Part shown: piece after piece, positions 4,410 through 24,153 of the stretch
How the letters are laid out: each line of letters begins with the position of its first letter
Position numbering within the stretch: position 1 is the stretch's first letter
NCBI GenBank assembly: GCA_938015445.1
Contig: CALLPE010000003.1
Location: 1 to 64,000, forward strand
Direction: 5' to 3'
From: an uncultured Pirellulales bacterium
Lineage (GTDB): Bacteria; Planctomycetota; Planctomycetia; Pirellulales; Thermoguttaceae
Length of the DNA: 64,000 nucleotides
The notes under the pieces: generated by a model
Told to the model about the DNA's origin: nothing
Databases searched by the model: none
What the model saw: only the letters and a program-made list of their open reading frames with translations
Made by a program: the position numbers and the translations under genes

Positions 4410-5126
4410 ATGGCCGGCCACAATTCCATCCGCGATCGGCTTTCCTGCAATCTTGCCGCAGTGCGCCAGCAAATTGCCGAGGCGGCTTTACGTTGCCAAC
4501 GGCGTCCGGAAGAAATCACGTTGGTAGCGGTCACCAAGTACGTCGGCTCGGAAGTGATACGGCATTTGGTGGCCGTCGGTTGCCACGATCTGGGCGAAAG
4601 CCGTCCCCAAGACCTGTGGCAGAAGGCTGCGGATATGACCGACTTGCCTGTCCGCTGGCATCTGGTCGGTCATTTGCAGCGGAACAAGGTGCGTCGCACT
4701 TTGCCGCTGATCGCCCTGCTCCATTCGCTGGACAGCCTCCGCCTGGCCGAAGAAATCGACAAGCACTCTGCCGCCCTCCGACGCCGCACCGCGGTGCTGC
4801 TAGAGGTTAACATCTCGGGCGAGCCAGCCAAGCACGGCTTCGCTCCCCGAGAAATGCCGGAACTTCTGCCCCGGCTGGCAGCCCTGGAAAACATCGAAAT
4901 CCGCGGACTGATGTGCATGGCTGCTCTGGAAGGAGGGCCCCAAGCCGCCCGCGCCAATTTTGCTGCCCTACGGGAGCTGCGCGACCGGCTACAGGCAGTT
5001 TGTCCGCCGGGCGTGCGTCTGGATGAGCTATCGATGGGCATGAGCGGCGACTTCCAGGCGGCCATCGCCGAGGGAGCAACCATCGTGCGCATCGGCTCGG
5101 CGCTATTCGAGGGGATCGCACAATGA
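4410..5126 (+). CDS. YggS-family pyridoxal-phosphate homeostasis protein (238 aa)
   Basis: This family (YggS/PLPBP) has an alanine-racemase-like TIM barrel that binds PLP and affects vitamin B6 and amino acid balance; no catalytic reaction is established. The PLP lysine is in the strand ITLVAVTKYVG. Other family signatures are the HLVGHLQRNKVR segment, LLEVNISGEPAKHGF, the MCMAALEGG region and the C-terminal LSMGMSGDFQAAIAEGATIVRIGSALFEG. The ATG at 4410 gives the normal family length; an upstream in-frame start at 4272 would add 46 residues unlike the family. Confidence 0.93.
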   Translation: MAGHNSIRDRLSCNLAAVRQQIAEAALRCQRRPEEITLVAVTKYVGSEVIRHLVAVGCHDLGESRPQDLWQKAADMTDLPVRWHLVGHLQRNKVRRTLPLIALLHSLDSLRLAEEIDKHSAALRRRTAVLLEVNISGEPAKHGFAPREMPELLPRLAALENIEIRGLMCMAALEGGPQAARANFAALRELRDRLQAVCPPGVRLDELSMGMSGDFQAAIAEGATIVRIGSALFEGIAQ

Positions 5127-5191
5127 GGGTGCGCTGTTCGGAACAAAACCTTTTACAAGGCGCCGGCTGCGCGATCGGAAACCGATTCAGT

Positions 5192-5935
5192 TCAATGTTG
5201 TCGCAACATAGAGGCTGAATGGGGGTCCAAATAAATGGTGGCCGCAGGGTGTTGTTGGAGCACCGAGGCAGGCACATCCGGGGTAACCGGACCGGTTAGG
5301 GCAGCCGCCACGGCCTTAGCTTTTCGCAGTTCTGGCACGCTGCAAATTATGTTGCGCGACTTCATAATCTGGCGGATGGACATTGAGATGGCCTGCTTCG
5401 GCACATCATCGATGCTGGCGTACCAGCCCTCGCCCACCTGTTGGCGGCGGCAAGCCTCGTCGAGCTGCACGACGATGTACGCCTGCTCGGTTTGGAAGTC
5501 TGCTGGCGGGTCGTTGAAGGCCAAGTGGCCATTCTCGCCGATACCGATGAACGCCACGTCGATCGGATGCCGGGCGATCAACTCGCCTAGCCGCTGGCAT
5601 TCGGCCTGAGGATCAGCTTCTCCGTCGACCAAATGGAAGGCTGCCAGCGGCTGAGAAAGCCGGGCCACGAAACGTTCTTTGAGGAAGCGGCGAAAGGAAC
5701 CGGGATGGGTTTCGGGCAAGCCGATGTACTCATCCAGATGGAAGGCTACCACCCGCCCCCAGTCGATGTCGGTCTTAGCCGTCAGCTCGGCGAGCATCTC
5801 TAATTGCGACGCGCCTGTGGCCAGCACGATATTGGCCCCACCGCGGGCTCCGATCGCCTGCCGGATGATCTGCGCGCCATCGGTCGCCGCGCGCCGCCCC
5901 AATTCCTCTTTGCTGTTGCAGATTACTACTTGCAT
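5192..5935 (-). CDS. nagB: glucosamine-6-phosphate deaminase (247 aa)
   Basis: NagB converts glucosamine 6-phosphate to fructose 6-phosphate and ammonia, feeding amino sugars into glycolysis. Visible motifs are the phosphate-binding LATGASQLEM, the active-site strand VVAFHLDEYIGL, and the catalytic-relay segment GIGENGHLAFNDPP. The start at 5935 (MQVVICNSKEELGRRA) matches the family start and has an aaaggg-like site upstream; further upstream the frame has no family similarity. A Gfo/Idh/MocA oxidoreductase lies just upstream on the same strand, so the two may be co-transcribed for sugar metabolism (inference). No nagA is in the window. Confidence 0.93.
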   Translation of the reverse strand: MQVVICNSKEELGRRAATDGAQIIRQAIGARGGANIVLATGASQLEMLAELTAKTDIDWGRVVAFHLDEYIGLPETHPGSFRRFLKERFVARLSQPLAAFHLVDGEADPQAECQRLGELIARHPIDVAFIGIGENGHLAFNDPPADFQTEQAYIVVQLDEACRRQQVGEGWYASIDDVPKQAISMSIRQIMKSRNIICSVPELRKAKAVAAALTGPVTPDVPASVLQQHPAATIYLDPHSASMLRQH

Positions 5936-6060
5936 CGTGGCTTGACCCTTTCGACTAGAACTGCTGACGTACACACGTAGCCAAGAGCGTCTGCTTTTTA
6001 TCCCCGAAACGACCAACTGTGCTGCGAAGCGCGTTGCACCGCAGCTTTTTTGCAAAAACT

Positions 6061-7086
6061 TCACAGAACAGCGATGCGCCGGCCTTCGACATGGCTGCGC
6101 CGGGCTTGTTGGACAATGTGCAATGCACGGCACAGGTCGTCCAAGTCGCTGGAGTGGGCCTTGCCCTCGACCACCGCCCGATGGAACTCGGCCAGTAACA
6201 GCTCGCCAAGCGGACGTTCGCTCTCCAGCGATTCCTGGTGCCGTCCGGCTTCATCGAACCAAACTACGCTCGATGGCAAATCGGCAAAGGCTACACCCCG
6301 CTGGCACGAAACCTGTAAGGCCGCAGCGGCCCGATAACTGATGGCCTCGTGCCAATGAGCCGGAATATAACGGCTGCAACTGATTTGTGCCAATTGGCCT
6401 GTGCCCGGCGCAGCAGGCTCCGAAAAGTCGAGACTGATCATGTAGTAGTCTTCGTCGCTGGTACGGCCACCATCGGCCGGACTGGTATGAATCAGCCCCA
6501 TAACCGCGCTGGGTTGTTTGCCCACCAAATAACAGCACCAGTCGATCGCCTCGACCATTTCTCGCAAGGCAGAGTATTCGGCAAGGCGGTTGGCAGGGCA
6601 CACTGTGGCCGCTCGGCTAGATGCGCACTGGTGGCACAGCAATAGCCGCGGTTGGCCCAACTGCGCAGCGATCAATTGCTTAAGCCTGACGGTAGCCGGG
6701 GCTTTTCGGCGCGGAAACTCCACCCGGAAAACCACGCCCGACTGCTCCACCCAGCGCTTGATCTGCTCGGCCTCTTCCGGCTGGAGTTCTACGCCGGCCG
6801 TGCAATAGACGGCCTTGCCTCCCTCGGCGGCTACCATCAGCGGCAAGGCACCGAACCACTGATGGGCCAACACCAGCACTGCGTCGATGTCCTCGCGGCG
6901 CGCCACAGTGCGAAAGCTCTCGACGGCCGATGCGTCAAACTCGGCGGCGGCCTGTTCGGCCCGATGCCCCACTTGCTCGCAAATCGCGCGAACCTCGAAC
7001 CGGTCAGCCAAGGCGCGCAAGGCTGGGGCGTGCCGCTGCTGCCAGGCGTCCCCCAGTCCGATCACTCCGACTCGCAACCTTATCAC
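6061..7086 (-). CDS. Gfo/Idh/MocA-family NAD(P)-dependent oxidoreductase (341 aa)
   Basis: The N-terminal Rossmann fold is clear (LRVGVIGLGDAWQQRHAPAL), followed by DIDAVLVLAHQWFGALPLMVAAEGGKAVYCTAG, where the usual E-K-P catalytic motif of the family is replaced by VYCTAG. The substrate cannot be told, and loss of the EKP lysine makes classical dehydrogenase activity uncertain. The GTG at 7086 is chosen because the Rossmann strand starts two residues later and a gcgagg-type site lies upstream; an in-frame TTG at 7146 is possible but unlikely. nagB follows about 125 bp downstream on the same strand. Confidence 0.8.
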   Translation of the reverse strand: MIRLRVGVIGLGDAWQQRHAPALRALADRFEVRAICEQVGHRAEQAAAEFDASAVESFRTVARREDIDAVLVLAHQWFGALPLMVAAEGGKAVYCTAGVELQPEEAEQIKRWVEQSGVVFRVEFPRRKAPATVRLKQLIAAQLGQPRLLLCHQCASSRAATVCPANRLAEYSALREMVEAIDWCCYLVGKQPSAVMGLIHTSPADGGRTSDEDYYMISLDFSEPAAPGTGQLAQISCSRYIPAHWHEAISYRAAAALQVSCQRGVAFADLPSSVVWFDEAGRHQESLESERPLGELLLAEFHRAVVEGKAHSSDLDDLCRALHIVQQARRSHVEGRRIAVL

Positions 7087-7719
7087 TACCGCCTCGCTCT
7101 CTCGCTCAAAATCGCCGAGATTATATCGGAACCCTCCGCCGCACAAAAGCCTGCCTAAGCGGGCGAACCCCGATTGAGGCTGGTGCCGGCCTCACGCCCC
7201 GTGCGGCGACTGAGCCACCCTGGCGCTGCGGAACTTTTCCTTGCCACCAAAAACAGGAAATGGCTAGCTTTGTCCGTAACCCTACGGTACATCAAGGTGT
7301 CGCCCAGCGATGATAGTCGCGTCAGTTCGTCCCGCACGTCTTGTGTACTTCAGTTCACACAATGTCACAGTGGCCAAGGGGACGAACTGGGGTCTTGGAC
7401 AAACAGGGGCCTCCTCAACTGCCCGGCGAGCGGTTGCTTGGCCCGAACCTGGCACAACTAGATAGGCGTCTTGGGCAGGAGCAATCGGTGGCCGACGAAG
7501 GCCTGGCTGAATGCTCCGTAGCCATCTTCGCCCCGCAGCATGCGACACAACAACCCCGACGCCCCAAGCATTTCACAACAATTTAGGATAGTTTAGGGGA
7601 ACCAAGCCTATAGAACGATCGATAAGCCTAAACTACGGCAAGTGACAATACATAAGGGTAGTTGTGGGCAGGACAAGCCTAGATAATGTTATACAAAAGC
7701 CAGACGCCGGCAGGCGACG

Positions 7720-7751
7720 GTAGATACGGGTAGATGTAGATACGGGTAGAT
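7720..7751. repeat. 16-bp perfect tandem duplication
   Basis: gtagatacgggtagat occurs at 7720-7735 and again at 7736-7751 with no mismatch. It is followed directly by a second, 23-bp-spaced repeat. Confidence 0.97.
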
Positions 7752-7783
7752 AAGGACAGAGGTGGCTAATAGATAAGGACAGA
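7747..7783. repeat. direct repeat at 23-bp spacing
   Basis: tagataaggacaga is found at 7747-7760 and 7770-7783, partly overlapping the 16-bp duplication before it. It is non-coding. Confidence 0.9.
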
Positions 7784-7955
7784 TGTTACTAAATGAGGTA
7801 GTTGAGGCCGCCGATGTGCCACCAATCGTGAAACGAGAACCGTTCCCGACGACACTGCTATTTCCATGCCCATGTTGTGCCTTCCACCTCTAGTTACGGC
7901 CGACTGCCCGCACGAACAATGCTCCCGATAGACCAGCCCGCCGTGGCTGAACGGT

Positions 7956-7981
7956 TACCAACAGCCTCTACCAACAGCCTT
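7956..7981. repeat. 13-bp tandem duplication
   Basis: taccaacagcctc (7956-7968) is followed at once by taccaacagcctt (7969-7981), differing only in the last base. Confidence 0.9.
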
Positions 7982-8793
7982 GGAAGATTGCACCCTGTGT
8001 CCCAAAAAAGAATACCGACGCAACCGCCTGTTGCGGAGCTTAGGAAAGGGACGCTATTGCCCTGTATTTCCACGTGTCAAGTCATTAACTTCCTGGAGTT
8101 TACCCAGTGTCGAGTCGGCCACGATTTGTCAGTGGCTTTGGATTTGCGGCAATTTACGGTGCGCCGAGCCACTGGTCGAGGTGTTTAAGCTGATAGCCAA
8201 AACGCAATGGTGCTATCAACGCTTGCAGTGCCCACCGAAGCACACGGACTCGAAGTACTTTCAGCAGTAACACTTATTCGTGGTAGCGCGACACTGGGTA
8301 AACCTCAGATTAACTTCGAAGTACGTCCACGCGTTAGGGCATTAATGCGCCGTCGGCGTTGGCGGTCGAGCTAAGCCTGCCGCACCGGGTATGCCAACTT
8401 CTACAACCTGCGACGGTATTCTAACGTAAAAAGGATTGCCTCGCGCAATTTACCGCGTGGCACCGTCGGGGCTTGCCTTCTGGGGATTTCCCTAACTTCA
8501 AGGAATCGGAGGCAGTGTTTGGCCTCTTGTGACAACAACCGTCTGCGCATGCCAGATGTTCTGGCAAATTAGCGAAACCATTATTTCCCTCTTGGTTCGC
8601 AACTAGAGATGGGCGAGCTGCACCGCGTCGCAACACGCTGCACATGCCGGTGTCCGCGCCGCAAACCAAAATGCCGCGCAAGAACCGACGCTATCAAACA
8701 CCGACCTTCAGCAAGCGGGTGTGGAATTTGTTGAAGCGTTTCGCTTTGTATAGGCTATTCTGCGTCATAACCCCTTTTACTGTAAGTACTTAA

Positions 8794-8866
8794 TGGAGCC
8801 GAGCGGACTCGAACCGCCGACACCCTGGTTGCAAACCAGGTGCTCTCCCAACTGAGCTACGGCCCC
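8794..8866 (-). tRNA. tRNA-Ala (anticodon TGC)
   Basis: Read on the minus strand from 8866 to 8794, the 73 bases fold as a cloverleaf. The acceptor GGGGCCG pairs with CGGCTCC (one G-U); the D-arm is GCTC/GAGC; the anticodon stem CCTGG/CCAGG encloses the loop TTTGCAA (anticodon TGC); the variable loop is GTGTC; and the T-arm has loop TTCGAGT. The discriminator base is A and the 3' CCA is not encoded. A perfect TTGACA lies upstream (minus strand of 8909-8914), but no good -10 box is seen at the normal spacing. Confidence 0.97.
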
Positions 8867-9743
8867 GCTTAAAGGCGACTTGTACCGAGCCGCGACATCA
8901 CAATGCACTGTCAAGCAGCCGTTGTGAAGGCATATTTAAAACACTATCGGCACGGATCGCCCCTCCATGTCGTTAAGCTTATAAGATTTTAGGATGCCGG
9001 GAAATCCATTCTTGCGGTGTTGCCATATTCTCGGCAAGCGTGCAAGGTTGCTCACCGGATGGGTGAACGGTAGCTTCGCCGTGGTTCTGCTGCTTTCTGG
9101 TTTATCGATGCCTGGTGCTGATGTCGGCTTAACTGTAACCTGCCGGTATTTACGCTGTGTTCTCGGTGCCTACAGGAATAAAACCGACCGGCCAGACGAC
9201 GCAATACCGCAACATCTAAGCTCAATTGACTTTACGCAATTGATGGTACAACAAGGCGTTTATCAACTCCTTCGCGGGTTTCGGCTTGGTTGCGATACGC
9301 AAAACCAGGTGAGCATTTGCCGGAATGCCGCGCTGCCCGCTATTCAAAAAAGTATTCTATTTCCTTGCCCACTTCCTGCAAGCCCGGTCGTAAGTGGCTA
9401 AACCGAAGCAGTACGCAGAACGGTTGGTACGGTGCTGTAAATCGGCCTCTTGCGCAAAGCCGTAAGAACCGTGATTATCGTCAGCTAAGTTAAGCGCCGG
9501 GCCAACCAGCGCCATCCTGGCGGTATCAACGCAGTACTGGGTTAGGGCCATTTTCAAACCCTTTACGCGAAGAATCTAGCTTTGCTGTTGTGAGGGTAGC
9601 TCCAGGAGAGTTTTTTGCCTGCCTGCCAATCGGATGCTAGCGTTCAGAAGAGGGAAGGATGCGATTCCACAGCAGGAGCTTTGTTATCGGATGCCGGGGC
9701 GCCCCAGGCGGCCCGAACTGAACTTTGGTCACCGTGTTTCGCT
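8867..9743. other. gene-poor region right of tRNA-Ala
   Basis: About 880 bases between tRNA-Ala and the small membrane protein gene. An open frame of 135 codons at 8994-9401 has no recognisable domain and atypical composition, so I do not call it. I see no RNA, repeat or mobile-element end. Confidence 0.55.
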
Positions 9744-10007
9744 ATGGCCCAGCAAACTAAACCTGAAGCTCCGCAAGAACCGGCCGGTAGCCGCGACTCG
9801 ACCGACAGTCTGGTGCGCACCGTCGCCTCGAAGCTGTTTCATTTTCAGCTTCAGCGCGAGCGGCGCCGCACTTCGAGAGAGATCGTGCTAATTGTGGCAG
9901 GGGTGTTATTGGTCGCAATGGTTGTTGCGGCGGTGTGGTACAACTGGTCGGCTATCGTGTCGCTGCTAGATACGGTCATCGCGCCTTCAAGTTCTCCCGG
10001 CATTTGA
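9744..10007 (+). CDS. hypothetical single-pass membrane protein (87 aa)
   Basis: A short protein with a charged, proline/glutamine-rich N-terminus (MAQQTKPEAPQEPAGS), a basic stretch (LQRERRRTSR) and one strong hydrophobic helix (IVLIVAGVLLVAMVVAAVWYNW) at about residues 50-71, then a short tail. The pattern suggests an inner-membrane protein with a cytoplasmic N-terminus. I do not recognise the family. The ATG at 9744 is preferred; the frame is open to 9615 but the upstream part looks non-coding. No clear ribosome binding site is seen. Confidence 0.5.
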   Translation: MAQQTKPEAPQEPAGSRDSTDSLVRTVASKLFHFQLQRERRRTSREIVLIVAGVLLVAMVVAAVWYNWSAIVSLLDTVIAPSSSPGI

Positions 10008-10236
10008 CGATTGTCGGGGCGTTGGGTTCCCTGGGTTTGGGACGGTTGGGCCGAACCGGGCCGAAGATCATAGGCTTTCCCCGGATTGCCCGGCACTAGC
10101 CTTGCCTACTTTTCTCGGATGACTTGTCTGCTTATGGCAGAAAGAAAAGGGCCGGGCTTGGCATAGCACACCGATAGGACGAGGCAACGGTTACGAAAGC
10201 CTCGATCATCTGTCTTCCCGTGCCTGTGGCCGGGGG

Positions 10237-11112
10237 TTAAAAAAGCCCATCGTGCTGCGTTTGCGCTAGCCGGACGACGAGAATTTTCTGCTGCGGCGGC
10301 CCATTGCAAATAGTGAAGAAGTGATGGCCGAGGCTGCCGGGTTTATTGGGCAGATGACCCACGACCAACATTTCGCCAGGCGCCAGCTTTGCGGCGATGG
10401 CCATCTCGTCGAATGCTTTTTTCGGGCGGCACGATTCCAGCCTCAATACCCCTTGGTCGCCGACCCAGCGCTGTCGAGGCATATCGTGGTGCAGCTCCGG
10501 GGTGAGTTCCAACCTCACCGAGCCGTCGGGCTGAGCCAGCCCCACCACTGCGAACACAGCTTGTGCTTGCCAATATGTTTGACCGCACAGGTCGCCAGGG
10601 CGGCTGATGAGCACCGACAGTTCGGGATATACCTCGGAGGCCACTATTTCCCCACGTACTGCATTGCGTAGCGGCATGTGGCGGCGCTGGACGCGCGGCT
10701 CGGCTGCCATTTGCCCCAATTCCACTGTAGTGGTGCCATCCCCAGGCGGTGGCCGTTCGTTCAGTTCGAGCAATTGCGACAGCACAACCGGAATCTGGTT
10801 GCCTACCTTGCCGGCGCGAAAGCCGTTCAGCGCCAGCATTCGGCGGACGTCGGCCGGGATGTGCTGTTCGTCGATCTCGGCCCAAAGTTTTTCGTTAGCT
10901 TCCGGGGCGCCAAGCGGACATCGCACCGTGAACACATCGAGGACGATCGTGTCGGGCGAGAGCTGCGGACGCACCAGTGGTGAACGGGTCTTAGTCTGAA
11001 GCGGCGCGGTGCAGCCGACTGCTGCTAGCAGTGCTAGCAACATGGCAGCCTGGCGCGGAGGCGAGCTTTTTCCGCACGCAGCAAGGCGAAATTGCCGCAT
11101 TGTTGCCTGCAT
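10237..11112 (-). CDS. conserved hypothetical lipoprotein (291 aa)
   Basis: The N-terminus has a basic region followed by a hydrophobic stretch and a lipobox (LLALLAAVGC), so the mature protein should be a lipid-anchored periplasmic or outer-membrane protein beginning at the Cys. The mature part (SPDTIVLDVFTVRCPLGAPE...) is rich in beta-strand-like segments and contains PELHHDMPRQRWVG, but I cannot assign a known domain. Starts at 11112 and 11100 are both reasonable; the frame opens earlier at 11184 without signal-like sequence. It lies alone on the minus strand. Confidence 0.65.
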   Translation of the reverse strand: MQATMRQFRLAACGKSSPPRQAAMLLALLAAVGCTAPLQTKTRSPLVRPQLSPDTIVLDVFTVRCPLGAPEANEKLWAEIDEQHIPADVRRMLALNGFRAGKVGNQIPVVLSQLLELNERPPPGDGTTTVELGQMAAEPRVQRRHMPLRNAVRGEIVASEVYPELSVLISRPGDLCGQTYWQAQAVFAVVGLAQPDGSVRLELTPELHHDMPRQRWVGDQGVLRLESCRPKKAFDEMAIAAKLAPGEMLVVGHLPNKPGSLGHHFFTICNGPPQQKILVVRLAQTQHDGLF

Positions 11113-15905: not shown

Positions 15906-16178
15906 ATGCCGCAAGCCATCGTCGATCCCGAGGAACTCCGCCGCTTCGCCCAGAACCTCAAGAAATTCAGCAGCGACGTGCGGCAGAGAATCACCATGCT
16001 CAGTGGCCAGATGGCCGCCTTGGGGAAAACTTGGCGCGACCAGGAACATCAGAAGTTCGCCGAGCAGTTCGAGCAGCAGATGAAGCTCATTCTGCGCTTC
16101 CTAGAGGTAAGCGATCAGCATGTGCCTTATCTGGTTCGCAAGGCCGAGATCATCGAAGAATACCTGCACCAGAGATAG
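15906..16178 (+). CDS. WXG100-like small helical protein, W-x-D variant (90 aa)
   Basis: A 90-residue, all-helical protein of ESAT-6/WXG100 size. The turn between its two predicted helices carries W43-R-D45 instead of W-x-G, followed by F51 (spacing W-x-D-x5-F). The helices run from DPEELRRFAQNLKKFSSDVRQRI and from EHQKFAEQFEQQMKLILRFL. It has no signal peptide, and no clear C-terminal YxxxD/E secretion tag is seen. It starts a tight four-gene operon ending in an FtsK/SpoIIIE-type ATPase, the arrangement expected of a type VII secretion substrate or chaperone. The ATG at 15906 is preferred over upstream starts at 15834 because the helix begins there. Confidence 0.8.
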   Translation: MPQAIVDPEELRRFAQNLKKFSSDVRQRITMLSGQMAALGKTWRDQEHQKFAEQFEQQMKLILRFLEVSDQHVPYLVRKAEIIEEYLHQR

Positions 16179-16180
16179 CG

Positions 16181-16948
16181 ATGGCCCGACAAGCCCGCGT
16201 CATCTCCATCGACGCCCTGACGATGATGCAAGCCGCCCTGGCGCGGTTCGAGCGCGATTTGCGGGCTGCGCTGGACGACCTGGAGATGGAAGTCCGCCGG
16301 GCACTGGAGTGGATTCAACACGATGCCCCGCAGTACTGGGAACATGAAGTGCGTGTAGGCTGGGAGCGGGTGTCGGAGGCCAGGGTGCAGCTTCAGCAAG
16401 CCATGACCATGCGCCGCGTGGCCGAGCACGATCCGTCTTGCGTGGAAGAAAAAAAGGCTCTGGAAAAGGCTCGCCGGCGGCTGCAACTGGCCCAGGAGAA
16501 AGCCGAAGCCGTGAGGCAGTGGCGGCACGCAGTGGAGAAGGCAGTCAACGATTACCTGGCCGCGCGGGGCCAAATGACTGGTTGGCTCGAAGCGGACCTT
16601 CCCCAGGCGCGCACCGCGCTGAAGCACATGCTGGCGGCACTGGAAACTTACGTGGCCATCGAAACGCCCGCCGACGCACAGGCGCCGCCGGCCGGGGGCG
16701 AAGCGGCCGCTGGGCACCAACAGCAGGTTCCGCTGGGCAGTACCGAACCCAGCCAGAGCACAATTGCGGTTAAGCAGGGTGGTGATTCCATCGCGCAAGA
16801 CCCGCCGGATGCCGCGGGGCAGCAATCTCAGGATGTGGCTCATAGCCGCGCTACAAGCCGAGAGGATGTAGCGCATGTGCGCACTGCCAGCGGAACTGCC
16901 CCGCAGCAATTGCCCCTCGGCGGTACAAGTGAGGAGTCGGCACGATGA
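16181..16948 (+). CDS. coiled-coil protein of the WXG/FtsK module (255 aa)
   Basis: It starts two bases after the previous stop codon. Residues 1 to about 165 are strongly helical and heptad-like (for example LARFERDLRAALDDLEMEVRR and EEKKALEKARRRLQLAQEKAE), with two Trp in WIQHDAPQYW near 47-56. The remaining ~90 residues are low-complexity and Q/A/S-rich, with internal repeats: QQxPLGxT appears twice and DVAHxRxxS twice. There is no signal peptide or membrane segment. I do not recognise the family; by position it could be a larger LXG/WXG-type substrate or an adaptor for the ATPase. The frame is open further upstream, but the ATG at 16181 is the only start consistent with the operon. Confidence 0.75.
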   Translation: MARQARVISIDALTMMQAALARFERDLRAALDDLEMEVRRALEWIQHDAPQYWEHEVRVGWERVSEARVQLQQAMTMRRVAEHDPSCVEEKKALEKARRRLQLAQEKAEAVRQWRHAVEKAVNDYLAARGQMTGWLEADLPQARTALKHMLAALETYVAIETPADAQAPPAGGEAAAGHQQQVPLGSTEPSQSTIAVKQGGDSIAQDPPDAAGQQSQDVAHSRATSREDVAHVRTASGTAPQQLPLGGTSEESAR

Positions 16949-17172
16949 GGCCCTGGGACCTTGCCGGCGGAATGGCCAGGATCGACTTGGCCCTTAAGAC
17001 GTTGACAGCCGAGACGGCCACGGTGTCGCAACTGTGGAGCGACGATGCCAACCGGGCATTTGTGGACAAGTACGTGAAGGCTGCGCAGATGCGAGTGCGC
17101 AACCTGTTGGATGCCTTGCGGCGGCTCAGCGAAGTGCTGGCCGAGGCGGAAAGAAATTGCGGCCAGATGTGA
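16945..17172 (+). CDS. second WXG100-like small protein, W-x-D variant (75 aa)
   Basis: Its ATG overlaps the previous stop (ATGA), which implies translational coupling. The protein is short and helical, with W31-S-D33 and F39 in QLWSDDANRAFVDKYV, the same W-x-D-x5-F spacing as the 90-residue protein two genes upstream. Helix 1 is about residues 10-28 and helix 2 about 36-70 (KAAQMRVRNLLDALRRLSEVLAEAE). It lacks a signal peptide. The two W-x-D proteins could form a heterodimer, as EsxA/EsxB do (inference). The FtsK-like ATPase starts 14 bp downstream. Confidence 0.75.
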   Translation: MRPWDLAGGMARIDLALKTLTAETATVSQLWSDDANRAFVDKYVKAAQMRVRNLLDALRRLSEVLAEAERNCGQM

Positions 17173-17186
17173 TATTGCGGCCAAAT

Positions 17187-20100
17187 ATGAGCGATACGAC
17201 AAGCAGCGAAACGGCCCGCTACGACAAGTCCTCTCAACTGCTGACCGAACTGTGTCTGTTGGTGCGCGAACGAGCCGAGTCCGAGGCGGCCATCAAACAG
17301 CAGGCCGCGGCGGCCAGCCAGCAGGCCGAGCAAAGCTACCAGCAACGCCGGCGCGAGCTGGAGAACTGGTATCAGCACGAAAAGCAAGCGGCGCAACAAG
17401 GGTACATTTCAGCCCGCGAGAAGTCGCTAGCCGAATTTCAAAGCCAGTACGAGGCGACCCTTCGACAGTACGAAGCCGAGCTGGCCGCCGCCCAGGAAGA
17501 GTTCGACTCCCAGCGCGAGGCCGCCAAAACCGCCTACGAAGAAGCCCGCTGGGAAATAACAGCTATGTCCGAGGCCGCCCGGGGCGGCTCGAACCTGGAA
17601 CTGAAAGACATCCTGGCTGGTTTGGAAGCTCGGTGGGAAGAATTGCATCAGATACATAGCCGGGCGACCGAGCTGCTTCAGCAGTGGGGGCAGTGGTACG
17701 ACATTCCCCCTGCTGAACCGGTGCAAACGCTGCTGGAGCAACATCCGGCGCATCGGTTCGAGCGCGCCGTGGACACGGCACGGAAGCAGATGTTATCGCT
17801 TTCGGGGCTGATGTTGCCCCGGCTTACGCAGGGTCTGCGCCCGCTGATGGCGCTGGCCGGCGCACTGGCGATCCTCATATACCCAGTCGGCAGTGCCATT
17901 GGCTGGCATAACTGGCCGTGGCTGGCCGGTGGCGTGGTGGTGGTGCTGGGGATCTATTTGGTAGTGATCTCCTGGCTGAATCGGCTGGCCCGGCAGCAGG
18001 CCATCGAGGGCTACGTGGCGCTGCGCCGCACGCTGCTCGAGGCAGGCTTCGACAAGCCGGCAGTGCTTCAGCACGCCAAGTTGCAGTGCGAGAAGTTGTA
18101 TCAGGGGATTTACGAGCGGCAGAATGCCGAGTCGCAGCGGGCGCTGGAGAAATTCACCGCGACGATGAAGCGGCTCAAGCGCCGCTACGAGCAGCGGGTG
18201 CAGGATGCCGAAAAGACCTTTCCCCCCCGCTTGAAAGAGCTGGAAGCTCAGCGCGATCGACTATTGGCGGAGCTGGACGCAGGGTATCCGCAGCGCGTTG
18301 AGCAGCTCGAGCAAACTTACCGCGCACGAAGCCAGGAGCTGTCTGAAGCGCACGAGCAAGCCTGCCGGCAGAACCAGTTGCGTTTCGAGCGCCAGTGGCA
18401 GGAGATGGCCGAGCGATGGCGCCGCGGAATGGAGCGCTTCGACCAGCAAGTGGCCGAACTTGCCGAGTCTTGCCGACAATGGTGCCCAAATTTTCAATCG
18501 CTCGAAGAACACCATCTCGCCGGTCGGCGGGAATTACCGCCGGTGGTCAGTTTCGGGCAAGCTACCATCCGGCTGGCGGATATTCCCAACGGTGTGCCGG
18601 AAGACGAGCGTCTGATGCCGCCGCGACAGGAGTACTCCTTGCCGCTGGTGTTGCCGTTTCCGCAACGGTCTTTGGTGCTGTTCAAGGTAGATGGGCCCGG
18701 CCGCAACAAGGCCATCGAGGCGATGCAGGCGGTAATGCTCCGCTTGCTGGTGGCGGCGCCGCCAGGAAGAATCCGCTTGACGGTGATCGACCCGGTGGGG
18801 CTTGGGGAGGATTTTTCCACCTTTATGCACTTGGCCGACTACGACGAGCAGCTCATCGCCAGCCGCATTTGGACCGAGTCGACGCACATCGAGCAGCGCC
18901 TGGCCGACATCACCAAGCACATGGAGGACGTGATCCAGGTCTATCTGCGCAAGGAGTTCTCCTCTATTGCCGAGTACAACGCATTTGCCGGCGAAATGGC
19001 CGAGCCGTACCGGGTGTTGGCGGTGGCGAACTTCCCCACTAATTTCTCCGAGGCGGCCGCCAACCGGCTGAAGAGCATCGTGGCCAGCGGCGCCCGCTGC
19101 GGTGTGTTCGCACTGGTAAGTGTCGACGTCAATATGCCCATGCCCCCGCACTTCCACCTGCCGGATGTGGAACAAGAGGCTTTGGTGCTGCGTTGGAAGG
19201 GGGAGGGGTTCGTGTGGGAGCATCCGTTGTACGGGCAGGCGGCGGTAAGTTTGGAACAGCCGCCGCCGACCGAACGCTTTCGCGAGCTGGTGCGGGCCGT
19301 GGGCAGCCAGGCGAAGGATGTGGGCCGGGTAGAAGTGCCTTTCGCTTGCACGGTGCCCCCGTCGCAGCAATGGTGGACTGCCGACAGCACTAACGGCATC
19401 GACGTGCCTCTGGGGCGCGTCGGGGCGATGAAGCTCCAGCATCTGGACCTGGGCAAGGGAACATCGCAGCACGTGCTGGTGGCCGGAAAGACCGGTTCCG
19501 GAAAATCTACCCTGTTGCACGTGCTGATCACTAACCTGTCGATCCGCTACAGTCCCGACCAGGTGGAACTATATCTAGTCGACTTCAAGAAGGGTGTGGA
19601 ATTCAAAGCCTACTCGCGTTACCAGTTGCCTCACGCGCGGGTAGTGGCCATCGAAAGCGAGCGCGAGTTCGGGCTAAGTGTGTTGCAGCGACTCGACGGC
19701 GAGCTGCGTCAACGCGGCGACCTGTTCCGCAAACACGGTGTGCAGGATATCCGCGCGTTCCGCGCTGCCCAACCGCAAACCCGAATGCCACGCATTCTTC
19801 TGATCATCGACGAGTTCCAGGAGTTCTTCGTCGAAGACGACCGCATCGCGCAGGAAGCCGCTTTGCTGCTGGATCGCTTGGTTCGCCAGGGCCGGGCGTT
19901 CGGGATTCACGTGCTGCTGGGATCACAGACTTTGGGCGGGGCGTACACGCTGGCACGCAGCACCATCGGACAAATGGCTGTGCGGATCGCGCTACAATGC
20001 AGTGAGTCGGACGCCCATCTGATCCTCAGCGAAGACAACACCGCCGCCCGATTGCTCACGCGCCCTGGCGAGGCGATCTACAACGACGCCAACGGGCTGT

Positions 20101-21116
20101 ACGAGGGGAACCATCCGTTCCAGGTGGTTTGGCTGCCGGACCACGAGCGCGACGAGTATCTGCAACAGATTTTGCACTTGGCCACCGAGCGCGGCGTGGC
20201 GGCGCCGAAGCAGATCGTCTTCGAGGGCAACGCCTTGGCCGACCTGCACGATAATCCGGCTCTGCAAGAGTTATTGGAGCTGCCCGCTTGGCCGTCGGCT
20301 TGTACGACGCCGCAAGCGTGGTTGGGGGCGGCAGTGGCTATCAAGGAACCGACGGCTGCCGGGTTTGTGCGCCACAACGGCAGCAATCTGCTGGTGGTAG
20401 GCCATCGAGACGAAAGCGCGCTGGGCGTGCTGGCCGCCAGTCTGCTGAGCTTAGCGCTACAGCATCCGGCCGATGGAAACTCCGTCGGTCAGCCTGGCGC
20501 GAGGTTCTACCTGCTGGACGGCACGCGCCCCGACGCCCCGGAAGTCGGCTATCTGAACCGCTTGGCGGCAGCGGTCCCCCACGAAACCAAGATTTGCGGT
20601 CCGCGCGGTGCTTCTGCACTGGTGGCCGAAGTCGCTGCGGAACTAGAGCGCAGGCAAACGGCCGGCCAGGAAGCCGAGTTCCCGGTGTATCTGTTCATCT
20701 ACAATCTTGGCCGCTTCCGCGATTTGCGGAAAGAAGACAGCTTCGGGTTTTCCGGCTACGACGATTCGCAGTCGAACAGCCCCGCGGCGCAGTTTTCCCG
20801 CATCCTCCGCGACGGCCCTGCCCACGGCATCCACACCATCGCTTGGTGCGATACGTACGTGAATCTTCAGCGGATGGTGGACCGGCAGGGCCTTCAGGAG
20901 TTCGAGATGCGCGTGCTGTTCCAGATGAACGCCACCGACTCCAGTTGCCTGATGGACTCGCCGGATGCCAGCCGGCTGGGCGTATACCGAGCGATTTTCG
21001 TGGAAGAAGGGCAAGGGCGAATCGAGAAGTTCCGGCCCTATGCTCCGCCAGGCGCCGATTTCCTGGCGCTAGTGCGCCAGAAACTTCATTCGCGTCTGCC
21101 TGCCCGAAAAGCTTGA
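17187..21116 (+). CDS. membrane-anchored FtsK/SpoIIIE-type ATPase with coiled coils, EccC/EssC-like (1309 aa)
   Basis: Likely motor of a type VII-like secretion module. Order of parts: a long Q/A/E-rich coiled coil (about 20-200), two adjacent membrane helices (about 220-265), a second coiled coil (about 285-430), then three ATPase-like domains. The first has a pseudo-P-loop (D502-GPGRNK). The second is intact, with Walker A GKTGSGKS at 767-774 and Walker B ILLIIDEF with D875-E876. The third is degenerate (G1072-HRDES in place of a P-loop). Three tandem domains are the layout of EccC/EssC, but here only the middle one keeps its motifs. There is no gamma (DNA-reading) domain as in chromosomal FtsK. 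The ATG at 17187 is chosen; the upstream in-frame part overlaps the previous gene. It ends a tight operon with two W-x-D proteins. Confidence 0.85.
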   Translation: MSDTTSSETARYDKSSQLLTELCLLVRERAESEAAIKQQAAAASQQAEQSYQQRRRELENWYQHEKQAAQQGYISAREKSLAEFQSQYEATLRQYEAELAAAQEEFDSQREAAKTAYEEARWEITAMSEAARGGSNLELKDILAGLEARWEELHQIHSRATELLQQWGQWYDIPPAEPVQTLLEQHPAHRFERAVDTARKQMLSLSGLMLPRLTQGLRPLMALAGALAILIYPVGSAIGWHNWPWLAGGVVVVLGIYLVVISWLNRLARQQAIEGYVALRRTLLEAGFDKPAVLQHAKLQCEKLYQGIYERQNAESQRALEKFTATMKRLKRRYEQRVQDAEKTFPPRLKELEAQRDRLLAELDAGYPQRVEQLEQTYRARSQELSEAHEQACRQNQLRFERQWQEMAERWRRGMERFDQQVAELAESCRQWCPNFQSLEEHHLAGRRELPPVVSFGQATIRLADIPNGVPEDERLMPPRQEYSLPLVLPFPQRSLVLFKVDGPGRNKAIEAMQAVMLRLLVAAPPGRIRLTVIDPVGLGEDFSTFMHLADYDEQLIASRIWTESTHIEQRLADITKHMEDVIQVYLRKEFSSIAEYNAFAGEMAEPYRVLAVANFPTNFSEAAANRLKSIVASGARCGVFALVSVDVNMPMPPHFHLPDVEQEALVLRWKGEGFVWEHPLYGQAAVSLEQPPPTERFRELVRAVGSQAKDVGRVEVPFACTVPPSQQWWTADSTNGIDVPLGRVGAMKLQHLDLGKGTSQHVLVAGKTGSGKSTLLHVLITNLSIRYSPDQVELYLVDFKKGVEFKAYSRYQLPHARVVAIESEREFGLSVLQRLDGELRQRGDLFRKHGVQDIRAFRAAQPQTRMPRILLIIDEFQEFFVEDDRIAQEAALLLDRLVRQGRAFGIHVLLGSQTLGGAYTLARSTIGQMAVRIALQCSESDAHLILSEDNTAARLLTRPGEAIYNDANGLYEGNHPFQVVWLPDHERDEYLQQILHLATERGVAAPKQIVFEGNALADLHDNPALQELLELPAWPSACTTPQAWLGAAVAIKEPTAAGFVRHNGSNLLVVGHRDESALGVLAASLLSLALQHPADGNSVGQPGARFYLLDGTRPDAPEVGYLNRLAAAVPHETKICGPRGASALVAEVAAELERRQTAGQEAEFPVYLFIYNLGRFRDLRKEDSFGFSGYDDSQSNSPAAQFSRILRDGPAHGIHTIAWCDTYVNLQRMVDRQGLQEFEMRVLFQMNATDSSCLMDSPDASRLGVYRAIFVEEGQGRIEKFRPYAPPGADFLALVRQKLHSRLPARKA

Positions 21117-21258: not shown

Positions 21259-24153
21259 ATGTACCATGCGCGTCGCACGCTGTGGGCCTTGCACTTTGGC
21301 GGTTTATCTTTTTTTGCCGGTTCATCGTGCAATGCGGCCTCGATTCCAGCAAGGCTCATCGCCGGATTGCTATTGCTGGTGATTGCAAGCTTCGCCGGGA
21401 TTGTACCGGCAGGCGAGCCAGCCGGCGATTTGGTGCCGGTCGGTGTGGCCATAGTCGATATCACCCCGCAGATTCCCGTGCGGATGTACGGCTACGGCGC
21501 ACGCACGGGAGAGTCGGAAGGCATAGCCGGGCCGTTGAGGGCTGCGGCGTTGGCCATCGGAGACGACTCGGGCGAGGGACCGGCGGTGCTGGTGACGGTC
21601 GATTGCGGTGCCATCCCGGCGGAATTGCGCGACGAGTTGCTCGGCCGCTTGAAGTCGAAGCTCAACTTGCGTGCCGAAAGATTCGTGCTCTCGCATTCGC
21701 ACTGCCACTCTGGCCCGGACGTCAAGCACATGCGCTTCTTCAGTGGCCAGCAGCGCCAGCATCTGGAGCAGTACGCCCGACTGTTGGTTGATCGCTTGGA
21801 GAAAGTCGTCGTCGACGCCCTGGCTGCCCGGCGTCCCGGCCGGCTGGCCTGGACGTGCGGTGCAGTGGGCTTTGCCGCCAACCGCCGGGTGCTGAAGGAG
21901 GGCAAATGGTCAGGTTTCGGATCGGTTCCCGGCGCGCCGGTCGATCACACGCTTCCGCTGCTGCGCGCCACCGATCAAGAAGGGAAACTGCTGGCGGTGT
22001 TGATCAACTACGCCTGCCATGCCACCACACTGCGTGGAAACTTCAAACAGATACACGGCGACTGGCCCGCCAGCGCCAAGGAGTATATCGAGGCCGACCA
22101 TCCCGGTGTTGTGGCTATGGTGACCATCGGGTGCGGGGCCGACGCTGACCCCAGCCCGCACGGCACTGTCGAGTTGTGCCAGCGCCACGGCCGCGCTGTA
22201 GCCGACGAGGTCAAACGTCTGCTGGCCGGCCAGCTCAAGCCGGTCTCCGGACACATCGCGGCGCAAGCGAAGGTGTTGCGCATCCCATACAATCCGCTAC
22301 CCCCGATGGACGAGTTGCGCAAGCTGGCCCAGGGTTCCTATCCGGCCGCAGCGCTGCTCAAGCGGATAGAAGCCGGCGAAAAACCGCCAGAAGCGAAAGA
22401 CTATCAAGCGACCGTGTGGGCGTTCGGCGAAGATCTGGCGATGGTCTTTCTGGCCGATGAAGTGGTGGTCGATTATGCCCTGCGGATGAAGCGCCAGTTC
22501 GATGGCGAGCGTCTGTGGATCAGCGCCTATTGCCACGACGTATCGCATTACATCGTCTCCAAGCGACTGATACGCGAAGGCGGCTACGAGGTAAACAACT
22601 CGCTAAGTGCGGCCATCTCTTACGGCCAGCCGCAAACCGTTGATCCCCCGGTGGAAGACCGCATAATCGATCACATCGCACAGTTGTTGCCCGAGCGCTT
22701 TCGCACTCCGCCGCGCGTTGCATCTTCTGGCCCACCGCTGCCCACTGCACAACCGCCCTTTACGACTGTTGACTTGAAGCTGGGCGAGGCGCAGCAGGTC
22801 GAGCTTCCGGGCAAGCGCGTGACCGTCAGGTTGCTGGAAATGCAACACCAGCGATGTTCGCTGCGCGACGCGATTCGTCAGGCGCGGGTGCGGGTTGAAG
22901 TCGACGGACAGCAGTTGTGGCTGACCGCGGCCAATTACCATCTTCCCGTCACCGTGGGCGACGTGCAGATCGACTGCCCGATTACCAAAGAGTATCTGAC
23001 TAACAGTAGCCGCGACGCCTGGGGGCTGGAGGCCGACGCCCGGTTGAGGTTGTGGCCTGCCGGCTCGTCATGGTTCGGACCGGAGCAAATGACCTATCCT
23101 ATCCGCCAGCGATGGTTCGCCAGTTCCAGCCAGATGGCTAACGAACCGTGCTACGTCGATGCCGGCGAACGCCCGCAAAACCGGAAGATTTATTATCACT
23201 GGGGACTGGACTTCGGCGGCTGCGAAGCCCTGGACGAAGTAGTGGCTGCTACCGATGGTTTGGTGGTTTCCGCTGGGACTGAACGTCTGCCGGGCTACGA
23301 AGGCACGCCAGTCAGCCCACGCTACGACGTGGTGTACATCCTGGACCGCCGCGGCTGGTATTACCGCTACAGTCATTTGTACGTGATCGATGCAGCAGTG
23401 CGGCCGGGCAAACAGGTGCGCGCGGGGCAGCGCATCGGGCTGCTGGGCAAAGAGGGCGGAAGCGGCGGATGGACCCACCTGCACTTCGACATAACCTCGC
23501 GTCAGCCGTCGGGCAAATGGGGGTGCCAGGAAGCGTACGCCTTCGCTTGGGAAGCATATCTGCGCCAGTACAAACCCAAGGTATTGGCCATCGCCCGACC
23601 CCACCATGTGGCCTACTTGGGCGAGCAAGTCACGCTCGACGGCAGTCGTTCCTACAGCGCCGTTGGTAAGATCGCGCAGTACCAGTGGACGTTCTGCGAC
23701 GGCTCGACAGCCCAAGGCGCGAAGCAGCAGCGAAGCTACGACAAGCCGGGCTACTATAGCGAAGTGCTAAAGGTTGTCGATGAGGCCGGGAACGTGGACT
23801 ACGATTTTGCCATCGTCCATGTTCACGACCGCCAGCAGCCGGATCGCTTCCCGCCGACCATACACGTGGCGTACCATCCAACTTTTGGCGTGAAGCCTGG
23901 CGACGAGGTGACGTTCAAAGCGCGCACGTTCGCTACCACCGACGGCGAAGAAACCTGGGACTTCGGCGACGGCAGCCCACCGGCTACCACCCGCTCCGAC
24001 GGAAATGTGGTCGCGCTTGCCCGCGATGGTTACGCGATTATCAAGCACCGCTACCAGAAACCGGGCCATTACTTGGTGCGAGTGGAGCGCAGCGATCGGT
24101 TCGGCCACCGGGCTGTCGGCCATGTGCACGTTCGCGTCGGTCAGGACGATTAG
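21259..24153 (+). CDS. secreted neutral-ceramidase-like / M23 peptidase-like / PKD fusion protein (964 aa)
   Basis: After a signal segment (hydrophobic LIAGLLLLVIASFAG, about 32-46) comes a neutral/alkaline ceramidase-like N-terminal domain. It has metal-site His in HSHCHSGP (H146, H148, H150), a second His in NYACHATTL, and GCGADADP; this family hydrolyses amide bonds of ceramides or other small substrates. About residues 600-790 form an M23/LytM-like domain with the full zinc set H647-x3-D651 and H740-L-H742. Two PKD-like beta domains follow (WTFCDGS and WDFGDGS). The ATG at 21259 has gggagg 8 bases upstream. It lies 142 bp after the FtsK-like gene but has its own Sec signal, so a link is uncertain. 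Confidence 0.8.
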   Translation: MYHARRTLWALHFGGLSFFAGSSCNAASIPARLIAGLLLLVIASFAGIVPAGEPAGDLVPVGVAIVDITPQIPVRMYGYGARTGESEGIAGPLRAAALAIGDDSGEGPAVLVTVDCGAIPAELRDELLGRLKSKLNLRAERFVLSHSHCHSGPDVKHMRFFSGQQRQHLEQYARLLVDRLEKVVVDALAARRPGRLAWTCGAVGFAANRRVLKEGKWSGFGSVPGAPVDHTLPLLRATDQEGKLLAVLINYACHATTLRGNFKQIHGDWPASAKEYIEADHPGVVAMVTIGCGADADPSPHGTVELCQRHGRAVADEVKRLLAGQLKPVSGHIAAQAKVLRIPYNPLPPMDELRKLAQGSYPAAALLKRIEAGEKPPEAKDYQATVWAFGEDLAMVFLADEVVVDYALRMKRQFDGERLWISAYCHDVSHYIVSKRLIREGGYEVNNSLSAAISYGQPQTVDPPVEDRIIDHIAQLLPERFRTPPRVASSGPPLPTAQPPFTTVDLKLGEAQQVELPGKRVTVRLLEMQHQRCSLRDAIRQARVRVEVDGQQLWLTAANYHLPVTVGDVQIDCPITKEYLTNSSRDAWGLEADARLRLWPAGSSWFGPEQMTYPIRQRWFASSSQMANEPCYVDAGERPQNRKIYYHWGLDFGGCEALDEVVAATDGLVVSAGTERLPGYEGTPVSPRYDVVYILDRRGWYYRYSHLYVIDAAVRPGKQVRAGQRIGLLGKEGGSGGWTHLHFDITSRQPSGKWGCQEAYAFAWEAYLRQYKPKVLAIARPHHVAYLGEQVTLDGSRSYSAVGKIAQYQWTFCDGSTAQGAKQQRSYDKPGYYSEVLKVVDEAGNVDYDFAIVHVHDRQQPDRFPPTIHVAYHPTFGVKPGDEVTFKARTFATTDGEETWDFGDGSPPATTRSDGNVVALARDGYAIIKHRYQKPGHYLVRVERSDRFGHRAVGHVHVRVGQDD

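Follow-up and report, generated by a model that had tools for sequence, protein, structure and literature searches.

The ATPases of described type VII secretion systems, EccC (T7SSa) and EssC (T7SSb), have two membrane helices, an active D1 domain followed by D2, and a WXG100 partner. The distribution of WXG100 systems was reportedly dealt with by Sutcliffe in 2011, as cited in PMC3935865. In a recent survey (PMC11217815), type VII subtypes were described for Gram-positive phyla only. A combination of a WXG protein with a YueA-like ATPase, which contains three HerA/FtsK domains with the middle one alone active, was reported with planctomycetes named (Zhang et al. 2012, PMC3482391, Table 1 footnote 6), and these solo-WXG systems were called mobile in the same work. 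An LXG effector was shown to form a heterotrimer with two WXG-like targeting factors, Lap1 and Lap2 (PMC9600955). HP0062 from Helicobacter pylori, a homodimer of unknown function, carries a WRD motif in the hairpin bend, and its gene clusters with an FtsK/SpoIIIE gene (PMC3397514).

Four adjacent genes, to which these systems are the closest ones known, were analyzed in an uncultured Pirellulales bacterium. They lie in the first 64,000 nucleotides of contig CALLPE010000003.1 (assembly GCA_938015445.1), a stretch designated here as the window. The genome (contig 3 of 63; 88% complete) has its nearest named relatives among Pirellulales and other Planctomycetota MAGs. The genes are designated as A, B, C, and the ATPase gene, and their features are listed in Table 1. 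A preliminary description of the locus reported four tightly packed genes at 15906-21116 with products of 90, 255, 75, and 1309 aa. All four gene models were reproduced by an independent codon-usage gene caller, with gaps of 2, -4, and 14 bp for A/B, B/C, and C/ATPase, respectively. At 142 bp downstream from the ATPase gene, a 964-aa protein (21259-24153, forward strand) combines a ceramidase-like part, an M23 peptidase, and two PKD domains, which is an unusual combination.

Table 1. Positions of the genes and protein features of the A-B-C-ATPase locus in the window.
Feature	Position	Strand	Description	Basis
Gene A	15906..16178	+	90 aa; WXG100, W-R-D in the hairpin bend	
Gene B	16181..16948	+	255 aa; conserved two-helix hairpin and disordered tail	
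Conserved hairpin of B	about 16202-16663	+	residues 8-161; tail after the hairpin disordered	AlphaFold model
Gene C	16945..17172	+	75 aa; second WXG-like protein (W-x-D); 4 bp overlap with gene B	
ATPase gene	17187..21116	+	1309 aa; membrane FtsK/SpoIIIE ATPase	
Pair of membrane helices joined by a short loop	17832..17993	+	residues 216-235 and 242-269	hydropathy scan
First alpha/beta domain	18543..19256	+	residues about 453-690; inactive; probable position of EccC D0/DUF	domain order
Active domain	19362..20081	+	residues about 726-965; EccC D1 equivalent	hhalign score 222
Walker A	19485-19508	+	residues 767-774	motif conservation
Walker B	19809-19814	+	D875-E876	motif conservation
Last alpha/beta domain	20319..21056	+	residues about 1045-1290; degenerate, nearest to EccC D2; no domain after it	

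Similarity to the solo-WXG systems is seen in the three FtsK-like domains with an active middle one and in the WXG protein without a fused toxin. The pairing of such an ATPase with a WXG protein in planctomycetes and the activity of the middle domain alone have thus been known since 2012. The footnote in PMC3482391 mentions neither B, C, and the gene order nor the missing D3 domain. No description of the four-gene unit was found in a limited search of open-licence literature. What is new is the association of the four genes in a fixed unit, the co-occurrence, the loss of D3, and the presence of relatives on plasmids from four other phyla.

The ATPase matched FtsK_SpoIIIE (PF01580) with the e-value 8e-35, while its matches to the EccC/EssC equivalog profiles were far below the cut-offs: 120 bits against 509 for EccCa, 96 against 778 for EssC, and 88 against 347 for EccCb. 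Judged by these scores, the protein is related to EccC/EssC, but it is not an equivalog. The hydrophobic stretch in the region of residues 216-269 is kept in 14/14 aligned planctomycete orthologues, and long helical regions flank the membrane hairpin on both sides, which is a difference from EccC/EssC. Weak matches in Pfam and PADLOC searches (NACHT, AAA_16, SspH, ZorA coiled coils, MHC_I, and Cmr6) were rejected as generic P-loop or coiled-coil similarity. In the locus L042, an in-frame stop precedes the ATPase start, and the gene itself is not broken.

The preliminary description recognized three FtsK/SpoIIIE-like domains with Walker A and B in the middle one alone, and this was confirmed. 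An AlphaFold model of residues 430-1309 contains three alpha/beta domains (mean pLDDT 87). The Walker A residues 767-774 and D875-E876 are kept in 55/55 relatives, except that K768 is replaced by R in five, while the P-loop positions are degenerate in the first and the last domains. The position of the active domain was also described as unusual, and this view has to be revised. Structural alignment with 4nh0 spanned all three domains with an rmsd of 14, at which the registers D0-D1-D2 and D1-D2-D3 are indistinguishable; therefore, profiles were compared with hhalign against five EccC-type sequences from actinobacterial plasmids. The middle domain scored 222 to D1, 138 to D2, and 99 to D3, and the last domain scored 82 to D2, 56 to D1, and 55 to D3. 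The whole three-domain stretch aligned best through D0-D1-D2 (score 291; a register shift by one domain gave 164). The first domain by itself had no good match among the EccC domains (28.7 to D1, against the best shuffled score of 22.6 for any slice), and its assignment to D0 comes from the domain order only. With the middle domain mapped to D1, the last one to D2, and nothing after it, this profile comparison indicates that activity resides in D1, the domain active in EccC as well, and that the signal-binding domain D3 is missing. The real anomaly is thus the loss of D3. The signal peptide in the structure 4n1a presumably sits on domain 3. The title of that structure names ATPases 2 and 3 of T. 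curvata EccC and a signal peptide.

Protein A matched WXG100 (PF06013) with 38.4 bits (Pfam cut-off 27.3; e-value 1.5e-9), and so did 15/15 of its orthologues; the assignment to the WXG type, which had been proposed from the W-x-D motif, is therefore clear. The best solved structure for the A profile was HP0062 (e-value 2.2e-9), and EsxB structures were matched as well. While HP0062 was reported as a homodimer, A is accompanied by B and the WXG-like C in the intact loci. Neither a signal peptide nor a membrane segment was found in A, which is 90 aa long in the window, and the aligned orthologues carry no fused domain. In 15/16 genomes checked, exactly one WXG100 protein exceeded the cut-off, and it was A.

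Protein C matched WXG100 only weakly (20.3 bits, e-value 7e-4), under the Pfam cut-off, and 6/13 of its family members matched at the threshold of 0.01. The C profile matched EsxA structures with the e-value 0.0015 and recognized A weakly in many loci. The residues W31, D33, and F39 of C are invariant. By these comparisons, C appears as a more distant WXG-like protein than A. The TAL-effector matches of the C profile are artefacts that arise from repeated matches of 18 residues. The secretion signal in its YxxxD/E form was found in 0/15 A and 0/13 C proteins.

Protein B was called a coiled-coil protein in the preliminary description. Its helical nature is supported, but it is not a mere coiled coil: in the AlphaFold model from 51 sequences, helices 8-80 and 88-161 of the conserved part pair in antiparallel orientation as a long hairpin (pLDDT about 98), and the tail is disordered. 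The residues W53 and Y157 are invariant. Although the Tyr at the end of the helix does not vary, only 4/47 B proteins contain a YxxxD/E motif. The window protein matched no Pfam family, including LXG (PF04740). Foldseek search with the model returned only generic long-helix matches (best e-value 0.026), and therefore, no family is claimed. Most of the 75 planctomycete B proteins compared consist of the hairpin and a short low-complexity tail, while three (L077, L102, and L121) have a longer, more ordered-looking tail. In L077 from Phycisphaerales (6551-7576), this C-terminal tail is an Imm33-like domain (e-value 2e-14). No toxin domain was found by a Pfam scan of 16 planctomycete B proteins and L077. 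The locus shares with the LXG-Lap1-Lap2 system a long helical protein with two small WXG-like partners encoded alongside. It differs in that B is not LXG by Pfam and lacks a toxin domain, and that YxxxD/E is absent from A and C.

In a gene-neighbourhood survey of planctomycetes, the order A-B-C-ATPase was found in 59/67 non-duplicate loci in which 1.9 kb or more of sequence precedes the ATPase gene. Among the eight exceptions, A is encoded elsewhere in the genome in seven, and it was not found in one, G041. Apart from G041, which came from this survey of loci, the planctomycete ATPase was not found in genomes without A: A and the ATPase were present in the identical 24/199 genomes sampled across the phylum, neither was found alone, and each of these genomes has one A. 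This co-occurrence includes genomes in which the two genes lie far apart. Kinship inflates the agreement, yet genomes of the same families lacking one also lack the other. Chance is excluded, as the operon is conserved across the phylum, and A-B-C-ATPase is a real unit that is inherited together in planctomycetes.

A search for a conserved flanking partner was negative, since each family of flanking genes is limited to 10/92 loci or fewer, and DNA-transfer genes do not recur either. These results bear on a DNA translocase or conjugation ATPase that lies beside the WXG genes by coincidence. The FtsK-like core of the ATPase, which matches FtsK and TcpA structures as well, agrees with such a function, but this explanation is strongly disfavoured and highly improbable given the strict co-occurrence with A, the best profile match to EccC D1, and the finding that DNA-transfer genes are absent also from the neighbours scanned within the window.

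In an exploratory quick tree with long branches, the planctomycete ATPases formed one clade apart from the EccC, plasmid, and Ter-associated forms. Sequences from Phycisphaerae and Gemmataceae tended to cluster, broadly following taxonomy. The single clade and the taxonomy-like grouping suggest that the module evolved in planctomycetes mostly by vertical descent with losses rather than by recent mobility. The solo-WXG systems were called mobile. The module here is patchy (24/199) and has plasmid-borne relatives elsewhere, but there is one A per genome, one clade of planctomycete ATPases, and no recurrent flanking gene. A planctomycete-type ATPase is also encoded on a contig of an Anaerolineae MAG binned as Chloroflexota (L120), by transfer or binning error. 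In a planctomycete of the same family (L049 and L238, G008:C280), another, Caballeronia-like ATPase adjoins proteins resembling TerD and TerB.

A membrane-bound, planctomycete-specific scaffold that organizes the envelope, built from A, B, C, and the coiled coils of the ATPase, would agree with the strong conservation of A (27/90 residues invariant among the aligned orthologues; one A per genome), the lack of toxin cargo, and the long helices that precede and follow the membrane hairpin. The conserved Walker A and B motifs imply that ATP hydrolysis matters, the module is missing from 175/199 of the planctomycete genomes sampled, and one relative holds a toxin in the position of B, as described below. 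A scaffold is thus considered rather improbable.

Close relatives of the ATPase were found on 5/72,556 plasmid records with a Helicobacter or Caballeronia query (e-value 1e-20), and similar modules are encoded on plasmids of four other phyla, from Caballeronia, Helicobacter, Deinococcus, and Rhodococcus. On the plasmid pSBC2-5 of Caballeronia sp. SBC2 (L145, 9023-19006), A is followed by a B-like protein (436 aa), a protein of 113 aa, a C-like protein (76 aa), and, last, the ATPase. The same cluster contains genes for a CARF protein (DUF1887), a pair of VWA proteins, a PP2C phosphatase, and a protein kinase. The plasmid pNHP190012_1 of Helicobacter sp. NHP19-012 (L146, 7137-11539) encodes A (89 aa), a 340-aa WHH protein, SMI1/KNR4, a 77-aa C-like protein, and the ATPase. 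The slot of B is thus occupied by a WHH nuclease (e-value 1.1e-11) followed by SMI1/KNR4 (e-value 1.6e-6), and it is the only firm case of a toxin and an immunity gene in this slot.

In the plasmids from Rhodococcus and Deinococcus and the IMG/VR contigs L158 and L159, the parts are present in a different order. A TerD gene lies in the cluster of the Rhodococcus relative. Protein A is recognized by its profile in the plasmid and IMG/VR relatives, while C is recognized only by size, position, and in some cases the W-x-D motif. The B profile matched the Rhodococcus protein (21 bits) and, marginally, those of L158 and L159. Similarity by eye of the Caballeronia B to PD-(D/E)XK nucleases and of the Rhodococcus B to ParB-type toxins was not found by Pfam, and neither assignment is relied on here. 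The contig L158, labelled viral, encodes at 5029-10880 an FtsK ATPase, several WXG-like proteins, and a B-like protein. A coiled-coil protein of 376 aa, encoded separately on it, has a membrane segment at its C-terminus, so that the planctomycete ATPase looks as if divided into its parts. Scans of viral contigs with one query at a time, the Helicobacter or the Caballeronia ATPase, gave no match.

The gene content of these relatives bears on an intracellular module for conflict or stress response, in which A, B, and C would serve as adaptors of an ATPase that remodels or senses something at the membrane, without any export. This is the main rival explanation. It is consistent with the CARF, VWA, PP2C, and protein kinase genes (Caballeronia) or TerD (Rhodococcus) in the clusters of relatives, the TerD- and TerB-like proteins beside a planctomycete relative, and the Imm33-like domain on one Phycisphaerales B. 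The membrane hairpin is, moreover, unclear in the ATPases of several relatives. Such partners do not recur, however, beside the planctomycete module, where the hydrophobic stretch of the ATPase is always kept in the aligned orthologues, and the hairpin-less ATPases often adjoin a small protein with a membrane segment (Deinococcus, Rhodococcus pseudokoreensis, and L158). This explanation is regarded as unlikely.

Known parts of type VII systems were searched for in nine genomes. The search took in EssB/YukC, EccB, YukD, and LXG. Genome-wide, EssB/YukC and EccB were found in 0/9 genomes, with positive controls. The ubiquitin-like protein YukD/EsaB was absent from the window genome and was found in 1/9 genomes overall, and LXG was found in 0/9 genomes, with a positive Bacillus subtilis control. 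For the parts searched, this agrees with the preliminary description of a type VII-like WXG/FtsK module that lacks the other known membrane components. Of its proposal of a reduced or distinct secretion machine, the reduced type VII-like module is retained, but the argument for an oddity from the position of the active domain is not.

The module is probably a reduced type VII-like protein exporter, in which B would be the substrate or a carrier and would be targeted by its partners A and C. The formation of an A-B-C complex, its export, and the direction and destination of export are inferred from the gene order, the co-occurrence of A and the ATPase, the D1/D2 mapping, the matches of A to WXG100, HP0062, and EsxB, and the hairpin of B. 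Modules of the same kind on plasmids and an IMG/VR contig, the toxin in the B slot of Helicobacter, and the precedent of the LXG heterotrimer point in the same direction. The ATPase would be anchored in the inner membrane through the two-helix hairpin and would act as a motor of the FtsK type, in which D1 alone is active and the domain on either side is inactive. In the way that Lap1 and Lap2 bind an LXG domain, A and C may associate with the long helical hairpin in B and bring B to the motor. The motor would then push B across the inner membrane, together with A, C, or both. The role of B as substrate or carrier is probable from the WHH-nuclease protein and the SMI1/KNR4 immunity gene in the Helicobacter slot, and that of A and C as targeting partners from the analogy with the LXG-Lap1-Lap2 heterotrimer. 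In relatives from other phyla, the slot can hold a toxin domain with an adjoining immunity gene, while in most planctomycetes B may have lost its passenger or never had one, and the hairpin complex itself would be delivered.

Several observations count against export. The ATPase lacks D3, A and C lack the YxxxD/E signal, and a clear membrane hairpin is missing from the ATPases of several relatives. The Helicobacter B-slot protein shows no sequence similarity to planctomycete B, which among the plasmid relatives matches only that of Rhodococcus. No outer-membrane part that would serve a diderm host is known, which also speaks against this reading.

Beyond a reduced exporter, the module may tentatively be viewed as an undescribed, self-contained type VII-like subtype of diderm bacteria, a less secure proposal. 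Its four genes would provide a D3-less motor and the hairpin carrier B, with A and C replacing the usual signal and the EccB/EssB-type parts, and the slot would be loaded with a toxin in mobile relatives and empty in planctomycetes.

The module offers a very small system for asking which genes make up the minimum for type VII-like export and by what means a D3-less motor recognizes its substrate. In its counterpart on the Helicobacter plasmid, the same order of genes includes a toxin-immunity pair, and HP0062, a solved Helicobacter protein, gains a plausible context.
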